From: a bacterium
GTDB taxonomy: Bacteria; Chloroflexota; Dormibacteria; Aeolococcales; Bog-877
Direction: 5' to 3'
Assembly: GCA_021791415.1 (NCBI GenBank)
Contig: JAJYWQ010000058.1
Coordinates: 1 to 64,000, forward strand
DNA length: 64,000 nucleotides
Below, piece after piece: positions 1 to 8,215 of the stretch. Every line of letters begins with the position of its first letter. Position 1 is the stretch's first letter. The notes beneath the pieces are model-generated. The model was not told where the DNA came from. It worked only from the letters and a program-made list of their open reading frames with translations, and did not search any database. A program made the translations under genes and the position numbers.

Positions 1-9
1 CGTCGGCTC
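1..9 (+). repeat. Left attachment-site copy: last bases of a tRNA-Thr gene
   Basis: The first nine bases, CGTCGGCTC, equal the 3' acceptor end of the tRNA half at 2548-2594 plus one base, and the match ends at base 10. The simplest reading is that an intact tRNA-Thr lies just left of the window and this is the left end of an integrated element. The match seen is short, so this is an inference supported by the adjoining integrase. Confidence 0.5.
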
Positions 10-71
10 CATATTTGATCGCAAAGTTGGGTCGCCAGCAGTCGCCAGAGACCGTGAAAGGTCGTTCCGTG

Positions 72-90
72 AGTGGTCAACTAAGTGGTC
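72..90 (+). repeat. 19-bp direct repeat, left copy (candidate integrase arm site)
   Basis: AGTGGTCAACTAAGTGGTC occurs here and again at 2490-2508. Inside it AGTGGTC appears twice, 12 bases apart. Short direct repeats just inside both ends of an element are the usual form of arm-type integrase sites; that role is inferred. Confidence 0.7.
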
Positions 91-1259
91 CAACCCCACT
101 TCGGGCTCTGGGCCAAGCAGCCTCCCGAGCCGGTCGGCGGCGTCCCGCTCGAGCGCGTCAGCCACGCCGCCGTAATGACGGCTGGTGAGAGCGACGCTGG
201 AGTGACCGAGTTTGCGGCTGACCACAGAGATATCCGCTCCCGATGCCAGCATGAGCGCCCCGTGGGCGTCCCTCAGGGCGTGCCAGGGAAACTTCGGCAG
301 GGCCGCTTTCTGGAGCGCGTCCGGGAAGAGGTGGGTGAGGCTGGTACCACTCCGAGGCGCTCCCTTCGTCGTGGTGAACTCGAGGCCGGGGATCGGCTGG
401 TGCCAGCGCGCCCCAGCCGCAAGCTGGGCTTCGAGCTGGGTCTGGCGCTCAGCGCCCCTACACCCACTTCCGGGAGGGCGACAACGCGCCTGCTGCTGGC
501 GGACTTGGGCTCAACCAAGTGGTAGGCTCCAGCGATCCGCTGAAGTTCCATCCGCACTGAGAGGCTTCAACGCTCGAAGTCGATATCCTCCCAACGGAGC
601 CCGAGTTGCTCGCCTTGGCGTAGACCCGTGGTGATCGCCACGGCCACTAGCCGTTGCAGGCCGGGATTGGGACAGGCATCCAAGACCGACCGCAGCTGCT
701 CTGGTGACAGCACCACTGGCTGCGGCGGTGCGAGGTGGGGAGGATCGGCCAGCTTCGCGACGTTGCGGGCCACCTGGCCCCACTGCTCAGCGTCGGCCAA
801 CGCCGCCCGCAAGACTGCCCTGCTATGCGCCGCCGTCCTCGGGCTCAACCCGTCCTGCTGTACCTGAGCCATCATGCGGGACACGTCCGCCGGGCTCAGC
901 TTGGCGAGCCGGATGGCTCCGAGTTGGGGGATCAGTTGGCGCTCGGCGAGCTGGCGGAAGCGTGTGAAGCTGGATGGCCGAAGCCGGGGCTCGACCACCT
1001 GGAGCCACTCGGCGAGGAAGTTGCCGACCGTAATGCGCTCATCGACCACCGGCTGGCCCTCGTCGAGCTGTCTTCGGAGTTGGCGCAGTTTGAGCACCAC
1101 ATCCTGTCGGGTGCAGCCATAGACCGATCTGGCCCGGTGCTTTCCCCTCTCCCACCCGAGCTCAATGCGGCCCTCCCAACGGCCGTCGGCTCGGAGCCGA
1201 ATGGTCCCCTCGCCCTGACCTCCGCGGCGGGTCATTGCAAGTGGACCGTGGCCTGCCAA

Positions 1260-1590
1260 ATGGTACGCGGGCGCGCGAGAGAGAGGGGTGGTTAGCGGGA
1301 TTTGGCGGCCGGGGCCCTGCTTCCCGCTTCCTCGCCGAGTGGCTCCCGGCTATGGATCCGGGTGCCGACCACCCTTCCGCTGATCGTGTCAGGTAGTGCC
1401 TGTGCTCCTGCCGAAGTCGTCGGTGCGTGATAGGGGCGTCGGGTGCCGGGCTCGACAGTGATGGGGGCGGGCACCCAAATACCTGCCTGGACCCCCGCGA
1501 GAATCCGGTCTAGCTCTTGGTGCCGTCGTGGTGGTGGAAATCCCGTTGGAGAATGAAGCCTATCCTGATGAGCAGACCATACTGGCGGTG
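1260..1590. other. Gap between integrase and toxin gene, no gene recognised
   Basis: Open frames here are shadows without a recognisable family or ribosome binding site. An excisionase gene is often found in this position beside an integrase, but none could be identified. Confidence 0.5.
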
Positions 1591-1596
1591 TATACT
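1591..1596 (+). promoter_or_regulatory. -10 element of the toxin-antitoxin operon
   Basis: TATACT ends exactly six bases before the ATG at 1603, so transcription would start at or next to the start codon. No good -35 is visible. The same spacing recurs at other genes in the window. Confidence 0.55.
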
Positions 1597-1602
1597 CGGC
1601 GT

Positions 1603-1866
1603 ATGGATAGCGGTCCGGTCGCGTGGGACGCGGCCAACCGCAAGCACCTGGGCCGGGCTCACCCGGAACGAAACATAACCCTGGACGAGATTGAAGAGGC
1701 CATGACCGATCCGGATCGAGTCGATGAACCAGACCCGCAGCGGGAACCCGTCCGGGTATTGCGGGGCCGTACACGCGCTGGGCGCTTGCTCTATGTGGCC
1801 TATGTCCCGCTCTCATCGGGCCGGTACCCAGTTCATGCGCACGCCATTGGGAGGCGGGGACGATGA
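1603..1866 (+). CDS. BrnT-like toxin
   Basis: 87-residue protein from the ATG at 1603. An earlier start at 1528 is open but has no ribosome binding site and would cross the TATACT box. The pattern AWDAANRKHL, a short helix (TLDEIEEAM), then a two-strand GRTRAGRLLYVAYV core and a YPVHAHAIGRR tail resembles the BrnT/DUF4258 group of small RNase-like toxins. Its stop overlaps the start of the next gene, a ribbon-helix-helix protein, which is the BrnT-then-BrnA order. Toxin activity is inferred from family resemblance and position. It lies inside the decayed integrative element. Confidence 0.6.
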   Translation: MDSGPVAWDAANRKHLGRAHPERNITLDEIEEAMTDPDRVDEPDPQREPVRVLRGRTRAGRLLYVAYVPLSSGRYPVHAHAIGRRGR

Positions 1867-2135
1867 CCAACGACCGAGCGATTGGGCAACGGTTCGGTCC
1901 AGAGGCACATCAGTATGACCCCTACGAGGGAATGACTGGTGATGAGTTCGTGGCTGAGGTGGAAGCGGCTTTCACTGCGGCGCGGAAGCATCAACGGGCC
2001 ATCTCGTTGAAGCTGCCGGAGGAGCTACTTGAGCGGACCAAGGCCGAGGCGTCGCGGCACGGGCTCCCGTATCAGACGTTCATCAAGGTGGTGCTGGAGA
2101 AGAGCTTGGACCGGCTGGGCCGGGGCCGAGTTTGA
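1863..2135 (+). CDS. Ribbon-helix-helix antitoxin (BrnA/CopG-like)
   Basis: 90-residue protein whose ATG overlaps the toxin stop (ATGA). The C-terminal half, from about residue 45, reads ISLKLPEELLERTKAEA then GLPYQTFIKVVLEKSL, a strand-helix-helix of the CopG/Arc type that binds operator DNA as a dimer. The N-terminal half is acidic and would be the toxin-binding part. Expected role: neutralise the upstream BrnT-like toxin and repress the operon from the promoter at 1591. The RHH fold is clear; the pairing is inferred from translational coupling. Confidence 0.7.
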   Translation: MTNDRAIGQRFGPEAHQYDPYEGMTGDEFVAEVEAAFTAARKHQRAISLKLPEELLERTKAEASRHGLPYQTFIKVVLEKSLDRLGRGRV

Positions 2136-2137
2136 CC

Positions 2138-2416
2138 GTGAAAGCACCACGGATGAGCGCCTACTTGGCAGCTGAGCCCTTGCACGGGCACCCGGTGGTG
2201 CTGGAGCGCTCGCGAACCGGACTCGGGGCCTACGCGCCGGACCATCCGGGATGCGTTGCCATGGGGCCGACGGTGGCCGTGACCTTGGAGCGCATGGCTG
2301 GAGACATAGCCGCCCACTTGGCCGGGATGTGTGAGGATGGCGAGCCCATCCCGGAGCCCTCGGCCAGTGTCGCCATCGTAAGGCCAGCGGCTTCCCGAGG
2401 CGAGTCGTCCGTCTAG
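2138..2416 (+). CDS. HicB-like protein
   Basis: 92 residues from the GTG at 2138 (a TTG at 2132 overlapping the previous stop is the alternative). The segment VVLERSRTGLGAYAPDHPGC, then a helix and GEPIPEP, is the pattern of the partial RNase-H fold of HicB antitoxins, which usually pair with HicA. No HicA-type double-stranded RNA-binding toxin is adjacent, and the C-terminus lacks an obvious DNA-binding domain. It may be an orphan antitoxin or a third member of the toxin-antitoxin operon, since it is co-directional with no gap. Confidence 0.65.
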   Translation: MKAPRMSAYLAAEPLHGHPVVLERSRTGLGAYAPDHPGCVAMGPTVAVTLERMAGDIAAHLAGMCEDGEPIPEPSASVAIVRPAASRGESSV

Positions 2417-2489
2417 CGTCGGCCGATGTGGCGCTGAGGCCGCCAAGCCCAGTGAGACGGGGGCGATGTACTGGCGATAGGCGGCCGCT

Positions 2490-2508
2490 AGTGGTCAACT
2501 AAGTGGTC
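2490..2508 (+). repeat. 19-bp direct repeat, right copy (candidate integrase arm site)
   Basis: Exact second copy of the 19-mer at 72-90, lying 40 bases inside the displaced tRNA half. It marks the right end of the element. Confidence 0.7.
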
Positions 2509-2547
2509 ATGGCACTTCGGAGCAACATGGCACTGATCGCAGAGACG

Positions 2548-2594
2548 GCGGTTTCGTAAACCGCTGGCCGGGAGTTCGAATCTCCCCGTCGGCT
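2548..2594 (+). tRNA. Partial tRNA-Thr(CGT), 3' half only (right attachment site)
   Basis: The anticodon arm (stem GCGGT/ACCGC around loop TTCGTAA, anticodon CGT at 2555-2557), variable region, T arm (GGGAG TTCGAAT CTCCC) and 3' acceptor strand CGTCGGC are present. There is no D arm or 5' acceptor strand upstream, so it cannot be a functional tRNA. Integrases that use tRNA genes typically recombine from the anticodon loop to the 3' end, which matches this fragment. Confidence 0.8.
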
Positions 2595-2713
2595 CTCTAG
2601 TCTGATCTCAGTGGGTACCGCTGGATCACTGGCCCGGCGCGTTCGCGTCCTACCGCAGTTCTCAGCCCTCAAGTGCCGAACGCTCTCGGTTAGACCGCCT
2701 GATGGCCAGCGGC

Positions 2714-3919
2714 TCAGAGCGAGTCGAGGAATCGGCGAACCGCGAGGTTCCACGCCTCGGGATCCTCGAAATAAGGGGAGTGGCCGCACCCGCTTAGTTC
2801 CACGATCCGGCTATTGGGTAGCAGGCCGGCGAGCGCCCGGACTGCAGGCGGGGCGATGAGGGTGTCGCCGTCGCCAACCAGGCAAAGCACCGGCATGGTC
2901 AGGCGGGCCGCCTCTGACTCGTCGTGGCTGACCTGTATCAACCGCGGGAACATGACGGCCGGATCTGCGCCGCCCATGCCCCCCAGAGACTGGTAAAGGT
3001 GCGCACGTTCGGGATGGCGTTCGCTGAAGGCCTTCCCAAGCGCCCGGTGCGCGCCGAGCACCTCCGGGGCCTCGAAGCGGGCGGCGGGCCCGCGGTCCCA
3101 CGCGACCTCTATCGCGGGTGAGGTGATGCCCCCTAGGGTGTCCGCGAGCACGAGGCTGCGCGCCAGCCCCGGACGGGCGAGCGCAACCCCTACAGTCGTC
3201 CAACCGCCCATGGACTGGCCGACTAGGTCCGCTCTGTCCACTCCAAGATGGTCTAGGACCGCCAGCAGGTCACCGACGGCGACCTCCGGACCCGAGAGCC
3301 CGGCGAGGTCGCTGGAGCGGCCATAACCACGGTGGTCCCACGTGATCACCTTGCGGTCCGCAGCGAAAGGTGCCACCTGCTGGTACCACACGGCGTGATT
3401 CCCGCCGGCGCCGTGGCTCAAAACCATTGGCACCCCTCCCTCACCCACGACCTCGAAGTAGATCTGCTCCCCTCCACTTTCCACGAACCCCGTGCGGCGG
3501 GGGAGCGCTTTCGAGGCGCCAGTTGCGTCCGCCCGGGCGGCCCGGCTCCGGACCGCGACGCAGTCCATCTCCACCCTTGCGCCCAGCACCAGTTCCACCC
3601 CGCCGACGGCGATCCGAGCCGGCGGGGTCTCGCGGAAGAATGCGCTGTACGCCTCGTTCATCGCCGCGAACTCGGCCATGTCGGCCATGTACACGTTCAC
3701 CTTCACCACGTCGTCCCAGGTGGCTCCAGCGGCACGGAGGATCTGATTGATATTGACGAGCGTCTGGGTGGTCTCGGCCCTGATGCCGCCGGGGACGAGC
3801 GACGGGCCATCGGCGCCGATCGTCCCGGACACGTGTATCACGTCGCCCGCCACGCCGGCATGCGAGAACTGCGGCAGCCGTCCCAGGCCCTCAACTACGA
3901 GGCGCTCAACCCTGCTCAT
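2714..3919 (-). CDS. RidA-family domain fused to an alpha/beta hydrolase
   Basis: 401 residues in two domains. Residues 1-125 form a RidA/YjgF unit, with Arg102 in TPPARIAV and Glu118 in RVEMDC at the places of the RidA imine-hydrolysis residues. From about 145 to 401 there is an alpha/beta hydrolase with Ser236 in GQSMGG, an acid in GDGDT (near 352) and His380 in GCGHSP, so the triad looks complete. AAGGA precedes the ATG by seven bases. RidA normally hydrolyses reactive enamines and imines; the hydrolase probably cleaves an ester, amide or C-C bond. The fusion suggests consecutive steps on one substrate, which cannot be named. Confidence 0.85.
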   Translation of the reverse strand: MSRVERLVVEGLGRLPQFSHAGVAGDVIHVSGTIGADGPSLVPGGIRAETTQTLVNINQILRAAGATWDDVVKVNVYMADMAEFAAMNEAYSAFFRETPPARIAVGGVELVLGARVEMDCVAVRSRAARADATGASKALPRRTGFVESGGEQIYFEVVGEGGVPMVLSHGAGGNHAVWYQQVAPFAADRKVITWDHRGYGRSSDLAGLSGPEVAVGDLLAVLDHLGVDRADLVGQSMGGWTTVGVALARPGLARSLVLADTLGGITSPAIEVAWDRGPAARFEAPEVLGAHRALGKAFSERHPERAHLYQSLGGMGGADPAVMFPRLIQVSHDESEAARLTMPVLCLVGDGDTLIAPPAVRALAGLLPNSRIVELSGCGHSPYFEDPEAWNLAVRRFLDSL

Positions 3920-4617
3920 CGGGCCATCCTTGCACCGCGGGACCGTTCACGCTCGTGTCGCGCGTCGCGGTGCCGGTGACTATCGACCGCGAGTCGAATG
4001 GCCGCGATCCAACTGCTGGTGGGAGTTCCAGGTCGTGACTCCCGGTGACGGCAAGTACCGCCATCGACGGGAGCGCGGACCCGAGTTCCACGAGCCGCAG
4101 TGTACCGGGCCAGGACGCAGTTTGCGGCACCACGGACGGGCGGCAAACTGAGTGCATCCATCCCGGATCCCTCGTCACCCGCGCCGCGAACTCGGCGCTC
4201 CACAATCTCGCCGCAGTGCGCGGCCAGTGATGGCCGACCTTCCCGTCTACAAGGCCCAGTGGCCGGAGTCACCTCTACCGCGCGGCACGGCTATCGGAGT
4301 CGGTTAGGGCGGTGCGCCGGGGCCCGGAACCGGCGATCCGAAGTGCGTCACCAGGAGGGTCCGCAACCTCGCTGTGGACCGGACCGTGGCACGCGCCTGT
4401 GTGTGGAGGACGCTCTGGGGCGACCGGTAGCAGGGCGCAGCGCCCACCGGCCGCCAGATCGCCGCGAGTCCGACATCCCGCGGGACGGGTTCGCGGCAGC
4501 GGGCCTCGGTGCGGCCGGAGCGAGGCGGTCATCCCGCGAGTCACCACTATTCCACGTCCGACCGGCTCGGCCGAGGTGCAGTCCCCAGTCCGCCCCGGAG
4601 GCAGGGGGAGATGCGAC
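3920..4617. other. 698-bp region without a recognisable gene
   Basis: Several frames are open on both strands because the GC content is high, but none shows a known motif, a good ribosome binding site or a convincing start. It separates two genes on the minus strand. No tRNA, repeat or clear terminator was found. Confidence 0.5.
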
Positions 4618-5844
4618 TCAGATGTCCTGGAGCCCGGAGATCAACCGGTCCACGTCAGCGTGGTCGTTGTAGTGGACCAGCCCGGCACGTACCGCACCCT
4701 GGGGCTGAAGTCCCAGCGCCCGCGTTATCTCATAGGCATAGTTGTCCCCACTCCACACATTGACACCCCGTGCCGCTAGAAGGGACGCGACGCCGTCGGG
4801 AGTGTGCCCTGCCACGGTGAAATAGGCCGTTGGGGCGCGCCGGACGGCTCGACCGAAGACGGTGATCCCAGGCATCTCCAACAGGGCCCCGAGCAGGACT
4901 TTGAAGAGGCGTTCCTCACTCGCCTCGACCGCGGCCATGGCCCGAAGGATCCGCTGCCGGCGCGACCCGGGGGCCGTACCTGCCAGGCCGGCCAGATGCT
5001 CGACCGCGGCCGTCACCCCGGCGTAGTCGGCGAATGGTGGCGTCCCCAGCTGGAAGCGGTCCGGAACACTGTCGCTGGCGGGGAGCAACTTATCGGGCCT
5101 AAAGCGATCGAGAAGGTCAGGCGGAGCCACCAGGGCGGCCACATGCGGCCCGCACCACTTGTACGCCGAGGTGACATAGAAGTCAGCTCCCAGGCTTTGG
5201 ACGTCCACCGGGGAGTGAGGGGTGGCGTGGACCCCGTCCACGTAGGTCAAGGCCCCTTCGCGGTGGGCAATGGCGCTGATACCGGAGACGTCAGGTCGGG
5301 TGCCGAGGACGTTGCTGGCGGCGGTGACCGCCACCAGTCTGGTCCTAGGGCCGACCAGTCTTTCGTACTGCTCCAGCGGGAGCTCCCCGGAGTCGAGGTC
5401 CACCTCCGCCACCCGCACCGTGGCACCGGCCCGGGACGCAGCCTGCACCCAAGGGCGGAAGTTGCCGTCGTGCTCCAACCGCGATATGACGATCTCGTCG
5501 CCGGGCGACCACTCGCGGGCCAGCAGGTCGGAGAACTTGTAGGTGAGCGACGTCATGCTGGGGCCCATCACGACGCCTTGGGGATCCCCACCGACCAGGT
5601 CGGCGACCGCTTGCCGGCACTCGGCGACCAGGTAGTTAGCGTGCTGGCTGGCTGGGAAGAAGCCGTCGGTGTTGCTGAGACCATGCCGATAGGCGCCCGC
5701 GATCGCCGAGATCACCGCTGCCGGCGTCTGGGTGCCCGCGGCTGCGTCCAGGTAGGCACGGCCATCCGCCAGCGCGGGGAACTCCGTCCGGATGGCGCGA
5801 GTGTCAAGTTCGGTGGTGTCGTTGATCATGTGCCTCCCCGGCAT
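4618..5844 (-). CDS. Cysteine desulfurase-like class V aminotransferase
   Basis: PLP-dependent fold-type I enzyme, 408 residues from the ATG at 5844, chosen because GGAGG sits eight bases upstream; an ATG at 5829 is possible. Visible are the N-terminal FPALADGRAYLDAAAGTQ block, the SRLEHDGNFRPW block, the cofactor Asp/His segment YVDGVHATPH and the lysine in SAYKWCGPH that should bind PLP. The sequence fits the cysteine desulfurase-like VC1184 subgroup better than IscS or SufS, and no Fe-S assembly genes are adjacent. The substrate is unknown. A TAGAAT box at 5865-5870 is a plausible promoter. It is divergent from folE. Confidence 0.8.
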   Translation of the reverse strand: MPGRHMINDTTELDTRAIRTEFPALADGRAYLDAAAGTQTPAAVISAIAGAYRHGLSNTDGFFPASQHANYLVAECRQAVADLVGGDPQGVVMGPSMTSLTYKFSDLLAREWSPGDEIVISRLEHDGNFRPWVQAASRAGATVRVAEVDLDSGELPLEQYERLVGPRTRLVAVTAASNVLGTRPDVSGISAIAHREGALTYVDGVHATPHSPVDVQSLGADFYVTSAYKWCGPHVAALVAPPDLLDRFRPDKLLPASDSVPDRFQLGTPPFADYAGVTAAVEHLAGLAGTAPGSRRQRILRAMAAVEASEERLFKVLLGALLEMPGITVFGRAVRRAPTAYFTVAGHTPDGVASLLAARGVNVWSGDNYAYEITRALGLQPQGAVRAGLVHYNDHADVDRLISGLQDI

Positions 5845-5864
5845 CCGTATGGCCTCCCACTTCG

Positions 5865-5870
5865 ATTCTA
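5865..5870 (-). promoter_or_regulatory. -10 element of the aminotransferase gene
   Basis: TAGAAT on the minus strand, 20 bases before the ATG at 5844. No convincing -35 is visible. Confidence 0.4.
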
Positions 5871-5971
5871 GGAGGGCGGCATCGCGCCCACGCGGCGAAA
5901 GTGGCCCGGGCCAGGAGCGGTGCCGGAAGGGGCGCCGTGGGTAGACCGGGGAGTACACAACACCCGAGACC

Positions 5972-5977
5972 TAGAAT
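5972..5977 (+). promoter_or_regulatory. -10 element of the folE operon
   Basis: TAGAAT on the plus strand, about 40 bases before the folE start, divergent from the aminotransferase promoter. No clear -35. Confidence 0.4.
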
Positions 5978-6016
5978 CCGTGTTGGAGGTGGACCTCTGG
6001 CTGGTGTGCGCCGGCC

Positions 6017-6706
6017 GTGCCTGATCGCCCGCGGAGTTGGGAGTCTCACGTGGAACCGGAGCTCGACGAGGACCTGGACGGTGTACCCACGGCCGGAGGC
6101 GTGCGCGCGCTGAGCCCGGCGAGGTGGGCGGAGCTCCAAGCTCACTCCGCCGCCATACTCTCGGGGTTGGGGCTCGACTTGGACACCCCTTCGACCCGGG
6201 ACACGCCCCGACGGTTCCTGCGCGCCCTGTATGACGCCACCTCGGGGTACGATGGAGATCCCAAGCTGCTGACGGTGTTCCCCACCGAGTGCCGCGGAGG
6301 GGCGGACTGCCGCATCAGTCAGATCATCGAGGGGCCAGTCCCCTTCTTTGCCGTCTGCGAGCACCATGCGCTGCCCTTCCATGGGACGGCCCACGTGGCC
6401 TACATCGCCCACGAGCACATAGTCGGCCTGTCCAAGCTGACCCGGTTGGTGCAGGTCTACAGCCGCCGGTTCACCGTTCAGGAGCGAATCGGTCAGGAGA
6501 TCGCCGACTGGATGGTGGAGCATCTCCAGCCCCACGGAGTCGCGGTCCACCTCGAGGCGGCCCACCTCTGCACCCAGATGCGGGGAGTCCGGGATGACCG
6601 CACCCGCACGGCGACGACCTTCTGGCGCGGGGCCTACGAGTCGGACCCGGAACTGCGGAATGACTTCATGGGCACGGTGTGGCAGCACCATCAGACCCAC
6701 CCCTGA
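6017..6706 (+). CDS. folE: GTP cyclohydrolase I
   Basis: Converts GTP to 7,8-dihydroneopterin triphosphate, the first step to folate and other pterins. The 229-residue protein has the zinc-binding CEHHALPF motif, the central HIVGLSKLTRLVQVYSRR block, the RIGQEIADW segment and the second zinc cysteine in HLCTQMRG, so it is a complete type I enzyme. Start GTG 6017; a GTG at 6050 is the alternative, since the first 30 residues lie outside the conserved domain. The next gene overlaps its end by 28 bases. Certain as to family. Confidence 0.95.
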   Translation: MPDRPRSWESHVEPELDEDLDGVPTAGGVRALSPARWAELQAHSAAILSGLGLDLDTPSTRDTPRRFLRALYDATSGYDGDPKLLTVFPTECRGGADCRISQIIEGPVPFFAVCEHHALPFHGTAHVAYIAHEHIVGLSKLTRLVQVYSRRFTVQERIGQEIADWMVEHLQPHGVAVHLEAAHLCTQMRGVRDDRTRTATTFWRGAYESDPELRNDFMGTVWQHHQTHP

Positions 6707-7362
6707 CGGTGGTGGGCGGCGCCACCGGGGCGCTTGGCCGCGCCGTGGTGCTGGAGCTCTCCAGGCGGGGACACCGTGTGGTGGCCATCGGGCGCACCGC
6801 GGCTGACGTCCCTGGTGCGATTCGGACGCTGGCGGCCGACCTGACGGCGCGGGACGGGGCCGAGGCGGTTTTCGGGGAGGTCGGGGCCATGGGAGAGGTG
6901 GACTCCCTGGTGAACGTGGCCGGCGGATTCGCTCCGGGCTCGGTGGTCGAGGGAGCCGACACCGCGCTCCACCAGATGCTGGCCGTGAACCTTGAGACGG
7001 CCTGGTGGAGCTGTCGGGCGGCGGCCCCGCTCCTCACCAGGCATGGGGGTGGGGCCATCGTCAACGTGGCTTCCAGGTCGGCGGTGGGGCCAGCGGGGGG
7101 CGCCGCCGCCTATGCCGTCTCCAAGGCGGCCGTCCTGCGCCTGACCGAGGTGCTGGCCGCCGAGCTGGCGCCGTCCCGAGTCCGGGTGAACGCGGTCCTT
7201 CCCGGCGTGATCGCCACTGCCGCCAACCGAGAGACAATGCCCGCCAAGCGGATGGCAGCCGCCGTGCCACCCGGGGCCCTAGCGGCTGTGATCGCCTTCC
7301 TGATCTCGGACGCCGCCTGGCCGATCAGCGGGGCGCTCATCCCGACCTACGGCTGGAGCTGA
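6679..7362 (+). CDS. Short-chain dehydrogenase/reductase
   Basis: 227-residue classical SDR: nucleotide-binding GGATGALGRAVV, structural NVAGG, catalytic Ser in NVASRSAVG and the YAVSK tyrosine-lysine pair. The C-terminal GALIPTYGWS matches the end of the SDR fold. It starts with GTG inside the folE coding region (28-base overlap), so the two are translationally coupled. With FolE upstream and a RibD-type reductase downstream, a pteridine reductase role is attractive but inferred; a general carbonyl reductase is equally possible from sequence. Confidence 0.85.
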   Translation: MAAPSDPPLTVVGGATGALGRAVVLELSRRGHRVVAIGRTAADVPGAIRTLAADLTARDGAEAVFGEVGAMGEVDSLVNVAGGFAPGSVVEGADTALHQMLAVNLETAWWSCRAAAPLLTRHGGGAIVNVASRSAVGPAGGAAAYAVSKAAVLRLTEVLAAELAPSRVRVNAVLPGVIATAANRETMPAKRMAAAVPPGALAAVIAFLISDAAWPISGALIPTYGWS

Positions 7363-7366
7363 TGGA

Positions 7367-8215
7367 ATGGGGCCGCTTGAGGTCCTGAAGGAGGCCGACG
7401 GCCAGGGGCCGGCGGAGATGCCGACCGCCCTGAGGGAGCTGTACGGCGGCCAGCTTGTCCTGCGGCCTCCGGTCGTGTTCGCCAACTTTGTCTCGTCCCT
7501 GGACGGGGTGGTGCACATTCCGGGGACCGGCAAGGTGGGGCGCGTTCTCAGTGGCGACAGTCAGGGAGACAGGTTCGTGATGGGCTTGCTCCGCGCCTGC
7601 GCCGACGCGGTCCTGATCGGGGCCGGGACCCTTCGCGCCAGTCCCGCCTCCAACTGGACGCCCGCGCAAGCGTTCCCCGAGCAGGCTGTGGCCTTCCAGG
7701 AGCTGCGGCTCCGAAGGGGGCTGGCCCCCAGCCCCCGGGTAGTGGTGGCATCCGCCAGCGGGGAGCTGGACCCGGCCCACCCCGGCCTCCGGGGTGCCCT
7801 GGTCGTCACCGGGGCTTCGGGCGCTGACCACCTGCCAGGGGAGTTGGACGCCGAGGTGCTGATAGTCCCGGAGGGCCCCTCGGGGCTGGATCTCCGCTCC
7901 ATGCTGGGGCAGGTGGTGCACCGGGGCTTGCCGACCATCCTCAGTGAGGCGGGCCCCCGCCTCACCGAGAGGTTGGTGGCGCAGGGGCTGCTGGATGAGC
8001 TCTTTCTGACCCTCTCACCGCTGCTGGCCGGTTGGCCAGCTGGCGGCGGGCGCAGGGGGCTGGTGGGCCAGACGGAGCTGCTCCCCCACCGGAGCGTGGG
8101 CGGCGAGCTGGTGTCGGCTCGGCGCCAGGGATCCCACCTCTTCCTCCGTTACCGCCTGACGGGGGCGGGGCCTGGGCTGTCGGGCGGGCTCAGCGGGGAA
8201 CTGCCTTCGGCCTGA
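7367..8215 (+). CDS. RibD C-terminal-like (pyrimidine reductase family) protein
   Basis: 282 residues with the DHFR-like fold of the RibD reductase domain: FANFVSSLDGVV near residue 40, DRFVMGLLRACADAVLIGAGT (NADPH-binding region), a central PSPRVVVAS strand, PTILSEAGPRL and DELFLTLSPLLAG. There is no deaminase domain, so it is not a full RibD. It starts four bases after the SDR stop, as the third gene of the folE operon. Possible roles are a riboflavin-pathway reductase or an alternative dihydropterin/dihydrofolate reductase. Its end overlaps the convergent membrane-protein gene by 26 bases. Confidence 0.8.
   Translation: MGPLEVLKEADGQGPAEMPTALRELYGGQLVLRPPVVFANFVSSLDGVVHIPGTGKVGRVLSGDSQGDRFVMGLLRACADAVLIGAGTLRASPASNWTPAQAFPEQAVAFQELRLRRGLAPSPRVVVASASGELDPAHPGLRGALVVTGASGADHLPGELDAEVLIVPEGPSGLDLRSMLGQVVHRGLPTILSEAGPRLTERLVAQGLLDELFLTLSPLLAGWPAGGGRRGLVGQTELLPHRSVGGELVSARRQGSHLFLRYRLTGAGPGLSGGLSGELPSA

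Follow-up and report, generated by a model that had tools for sequence, protein, structure and literature searches.

What does it mean that a RidA-type domain and an alpha/beta-hydrolase are encoded by one open reading frame near the start of this contig? RidA-type domains hydrolyze reactive enamines and imines, and to our knowledge few Rid proteins beyond RidA and RutC have an established physiological substrate. A covalent Rid–hydrolase join narrows the candidate intermediates to the products or substrates of that hydrolase. We analyzed the gene in its 64,000-nucleotide stretch of contig JAJYWQ010000058.1 (hereafter the window) and in its relatives. The initial annotation had described both domains in a single chain, without giving the strand, and had suggested direct transfer of a reactive intermediate between them.

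The gene is a single open reading frame with no internal stops (Table 1). The Pfam family Ribonuc_L-PSP (PF01042) matched residues 17–123 with 98.4 bits against a gathering cut-off of 27.3, placing this part in the Rid family, and Abhydrolase_1, Abhydrolase_6 and Hydrolase_4 matched across residues 164–389 with 80, 68 and 55 bits, respectively, each above its curated cut-off. The match to both domain families is well past chance level. An AlphaFold model, computed from an input alignment of 22 proteins, had a mean pLDDT of 83 with both domain cores confident, and residues 127–136 of the linker were predicted to be disordered (pLDDT < 50). The relative orientation of the two domains is uncertain because the pTM of the model was 0.66. 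Linker length and sequence also differed among aligned relatives.

Table 1. Features of the fusion gene and of the adjoining contig start, in window coordinates
Feature	Position	Strand	Evidence
Fusion gene, RidA domain + alpha/beta-hydrolase, 401 aa	2714–3919	−	ORF and translation, Pfam, 18 homologous intact fusions
Rid domain, residues 1–125	3545–3919	−	PF01042 match, residue map against E. coli RidA
Linker, residues 126–140	3500–3544	−	Alignment, pLDDT < 50 at 127–136
Alpha/beta-hydrolase domain, residues 145–401	2717–3487	−	Pfam, invariant alignment columns, fold matches
48-bp exact copy of tRNA-Thr(CGT) 3′ end	2548–2595	+	100% match to the complete tRNA-Thr gene that this genome carries on contig C40
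19-bp direct repeats	72–90, 2490–2508		
Truncated integrase (remnant)	567–1259	−	

Scanning one genome per species, we found an intact in-frame fusion at 18 other loci (L017–L034; L022 is nearly identical to L021), and the aligned relatives share 47–70% identity with the window protein. Most carriers are actinobacterial MAGs from acid environments, several of them labelled Acidimicrobiia, and they include a cultured isolate, Acidithrix ferrooxidans PY-F3. The fusion is rare in the class of Acidithrix as well, where 247 genomes yielded a single intact form and a single Rid-less one (E ≤ 1e-60). Two carriers lie outside Actinobacteria, namely a Myxococcota MAG (L032) and a delta-proteobacterial MAG (L034). 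The 18 intact fusions establish that the single chain is a real fusion, and they contradict the possibility, raised in the initial annotation, that the halves are separate genes in all relatives and were joined here by an error. An assembly chimera, a frameshift joining or bin contamination might be suspected from the position of the gene, 2.7 kb from the contig start in a flank (1–4266) that genus-mates do not share as a block. However, independent assemblies have the same architecture at 47–70% identity, which rules out a joining error, and from 4267 on the gene order of the contig matches that of genus-mates. We consider such an artefact extremely improbable and rejected it for the fusion itself.

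We then compared the Rid half with characterized proteins. Tyr17, Gly31, Asn88, Arg105 and Glu120 of E. coli RidA correspond to Phe18, Gly32, Asn88, Arg102 and Glu117, and these five residues are identical in all 19 intact Rid domains, fused or split. Arg102 and Glu117 are the Arg and Glu that had been noted within residues 1–125, and the protein thus has the Arg105-equivalent together with the Glu120-equivalent that mark a deaminase-competent Rid. Phenylalanine at the Tyr17-equivalent position is also found in RutC. At two Rid positions where all relatives agree, the window copy has a different residue: Ala104 instead of Thr, and Val111 instead of Ala. Sequence searches matched the N-terminal part to RidA structures; the RidA subfamily model TIGR00004 scored below its cut-off (92.1 vs 106.25 bits), and in the tree the Rid half formed a clade separate from E. 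coli RidA/TdcF.

The hydrolase half belongs to the alpha/beta-hydrolase superfamily by both its fold and its Ser–acid–His triad. None of the 22 aligned proteins departs from Ser236 (in GQSMGGW), Asp352 (in GDGD) or His380 (in GHSPYF), which bears out the full triad proposed for residues 145–401; Asp352 is the putative acid because it follows the penultimate core strand, as in the fold pattern. Fold searches returned lactonases/esterases and an enol-lactonase (Est816, 5egn; TtEst, 4uhc; PcaD, 2xua). PcaD was also the closest NCBIfam model, although its equivalog TIGR02427 scored 103.4 bits against a cut-off of 255.85. Pairwise dN/dS among intact fusions was 0.07–0.42 for the Rid part and 0.06–0.30 for the hydrolase part, with somewhat faster evolution of the Rid domain in most pairs. 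Purifying selection thus acts on both domains, and from their sequences both halves look functional.

We favor, with a probability of about one half, the reading that the fusion is a tethered two-step enzyme in which the substrate of the Rid domain is also a product, or a substrate, of the hydrolase. The PcaD-like serine hydrolase would cut an ester, enol-lactone, carbamate or amide bond in a nitrogen-containing metabolite, and the Rid domain would convert the resulting (or preceding) reactive enamine or imine to a carbonyl compound and ammonia. Because trimers are the usual state of Rid proteins (Niehaus et al., PMC4433059), three hydrolases would be arrayed around the three interface active sites of the Rid part, and this proximity would concentrate the unstable intermediate locally. 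We infer both chemistries, their order, the trimerization and the benefit of proximity. Support for the two-step reading comes from the fused frame in 18 other records, the conservation of both catalytic sets and purifying selection, and also from a split homologue with overlapping genes and the recurrent linkage of RidA and hydrolase genes described below. The absence of conserved pathway neighbours, the decay or loss of the Rid domain in some relatives and the unconserved linker weigh against it, as do features of the plasmid gene pairs described below.

The Rid half could alternatively be mainly an oligomerization or regulatory module that trimerizes the hydrolase or senses a ligand, with its chemistry of little weight. 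The typically trimeric state of Rid proteins (PMC4433059), the somewhat faster evolution of the Rid domain and a subclade that degrades or drops it while keeping the hydrolase would all fit such a role. A mere scaffold, however, needs no Arg102 or Glu117, and Phe18, Gly32, Asn88, Arg102 and Glu117 are invariant in 19 of 19 domains. We regard this explanation as unlikely.

The forms found among relatives show how the two halves are associated. In L039, from a Myxococcota genome, they are two open reading frames with a stop/start overlap (GTGA), the layout expected immediately before fusion or after fission. The hydrolase tree placed 16 of the 18 fused hydrolases, together with the degenerate and Rid-less forms, in one clade (SH-aLRT 99). 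L032 and the split L039 adjoin this clade together with standalone Myxococcota hydrolases, and L034 had no firm placement. Within one clade of actinobacterial MAGs (L035–L038), the Rid domain decays stepwise and is then lost in frame: it is shortened and degenerate, without the catalytic Glu, in L035–L037, is no longer detected by Pfam in L035, and is deleted in L038, which is nested among the others and keeps the hydrolase. In this subclade, dN/dS was 0.36–0.41 for the Rid remnant vs 0.26–0.36 for the hydrolase. The Rid half thus appears to be dispensable for the hydrolase in part of the family. Split and neighbouring genes indicate that the two functions are linked, yet the degenerate and Rid-less subclade indicates that the hydrolase can lack Rid.

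These variants bear on the direct transfer of a reactive intermediate, which is still hypothetical: the linker is variable and predicted to be unstructured, and in one subclade the Rid half has decayed or disappeared. As there are also no conserved catabolic neighbours, it is unlikely that channelling is obligatory throughout the family. Because the linker varies and the Rid half is dispensable in one subclade, tethering is favored over a rigid channel.

Clustering of neighbouring genes revealed none common to all fusion loci. Synteny was limited to close relatives, which share a divergent AMP-binding ligase and sensory proteins. Related hydrolases and RidA are encoded by neighbouring genes in Rhodococcus and Nocardioides. 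In R. erythropolis an IclR regulator gene is followed by the hydrolase gene, which overlaps it, and then by RidA, and the genes for an NMT1-type ABC importer run in the opposite direction from this cluster; a reverse transcriptase gene (RVT_1, 70.7 bits) lies directly downstream of this hydrolase–RidA pair (L060:7253-8605). When independent origin of the Rhodococcus pairing was tested against membership of its RidA in the clade of the fused Rid, the AU test gave p = 0.33. More distant RidA–hydrolase gene pairs, adjacent or with a 4-nt overlap, occur in plasmid catabolic clusters of Bosea, Parasedimentitalea and Cupriavidus. Since the RidA partners in the Bosea and Cupriavidus pairs lack the catalytic Arg, a hydrolase partner alone is no sign of enamine chemistry, and the hydrolases of these pairs also fall outside the hydrolase clade of the fusion; both points count against the two-step reading. 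The cluster on Cupriavidus necator pENH92 (L138:4277-7855) comprises an NAD(P)H oxidoreductase, a flavin reductase, a RutA-like flavin monooxygenase (282 bits, below the cut-off of 498), the Arg-less RidA and the hydrolase, with a 4-nt overlap, and appears to be a variant of a Rut-like pathway. The statement that RidA-like proteins sit beside hydrolases is supported by Rhodococcus, the plasmid clusters and rutC–rutD, but no catabolic neighbours are conserved around the fusion gene.

The fusion gene is accessory in the window genome. A search of 110 genomes of the class, the window's own among them, found it in none of the seven genus-mates and in no further class member, and it was absent from all other phylum members sampled (n = 400, E ≤ 1e-40). 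Colinearity with genus-mates, at about 80–86% DNA identity, begins at approximately 4267, and the gene lies in a genus-variable stretch (2596–4266) directly to the right of the tRNA-Thr site. Horizontal acquisition is probable, because the protein groups with actinobacterial fusions in the trees. The copied tRNA-Thr end is likely the attachment site of an integrative element spanning about 1–2595. The contig start carries the same tRNA-Thr end (CGTCGGCTCC). Consecutive genes for a BrnT-like toxin (weak, below cut-off), a CopG-type antitoxin and a HicB-like antitoxin occupy 1528–2416, and a region resembling 1581–2147 is present in genus-mates G003 and G004. On the other side, genus-conserved genes at 4618–8215 encode a cysteine-desulfurase-like protein (TIGR01976), GTP cyclohydrolase I, a short-chain dehydrogenase and a RibD C-terminal protein, possibly a pterin/folate-related cluster.

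This genomic setting is relevant to the possibility that the two halves catalyze unrelated reactions, with Rid a general 2-aminoacrylate/imine detoxifier fused by chance to an esterase/lactonase and benefiting only from co-expression. The fusion is the sole strong Rid of the window genome, where PF01042 has only one further match, a weak one (47.6 bits) with counterparts in genus-mates; the query used found no further RidA in the Acidithrix genome, and the fusion lacks conserved pathway neighbours. The cysteine-desulfurase-like gene, 700 bp upstream on the same strand, encodes a type of PLP enzyme whose genes are known to lie in clusters with RidA (PMC4433059). On the other hand, at least one separate Rid gene is present in other genomes with the fusion, the desulfurase-like gene lies in a chromosomal segment shared with genus-mates that lack the fusion, and such hydrolases are tied to RidA in several arrangements (Rhodococcus, the split L039 and the plasmid pairs). 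We therefore consider unrelated reactions rather improbable. An operon of the fusion gene with the desulfurase-like gene was also rejected, given the 700-bp gap and the occurrence of the latter in genus-mates without the fusion.

No Rid/alpha-beta-hydrolase fusion was described in the literature searched, whose incomplete coverage does not prove absence; in the available portion of Niehaus et al. (PMC4433059), tandem fusions are the only Rid fusions mentioned. The tethered two-step enzyme might, as a tentative extension, be a bifunctional enzyme not described before, present in Myxococcota and in actinobacteria of acid environments, that combines hydrolysis of a nitrogen-containing ester, lactone or carbamate with deamination of the liberated enamine and in which Rid is obligate for catalysis. 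It would then represent a new catabolic or detoxification step in which Rid is no bystander but belongs to the catalyst. The contribution of Rid is directly testable with the variants that occur in nature, which are intact, split, degenerate or Rid-less.

Several known systems resemble the fusion. RidA/YjgF/UK114 deaminases share its fold and the Arg105, Glu120, Asn88 and Gly31 equivalents, whereas the fusion has Phe for Tyr17, an attached hydrolase, a score under the TIGR00004 cut-off and a clade apart from E. coli RidA/TdcF. In both sequence and fold searches the hydrolase half matched Est816 and TtEst best, but they are single-domain proteins with 25–29% identity to it. RutC of the E. coli rut operon is a Rid-family 3-aminoacrylate deaminase, and RutC and RutD, like the fusion, place a Rid protein and an alpha/beta-hydrolase of the same two folds side by side with the Rid arginine kept, but as two genes rather than one. 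The Rut pathway itself was rejected: the RutC (TIGR03610, 46.8 vs 169.1 bits) and RutD (TIGR03611, 68.4 vs 238.5 bits) models missed their cut-offs, a search of the window genome (about 91% complete) gave no RutA match at E ≤ 1e-20, and in nine fusion or split genomes RutA never reached the cut-off. PcaDC/PcaCD proteins are bifunctional fusions of an alpha/beta-hydrolase with a neighbouring pathway enzyme; as in the window protein, the hydrolase is fused to another enzyme, but the partner is carboxymuconolactone decarboxylase instead of Rid. The fusion resembles the RutC–RutD pair or a PcaD fusion, yet curated cut-offs place it in neither group. It recombines two enzymes that are each familiar, without amounting to a new kind of system, and probably couples two pathway steps.
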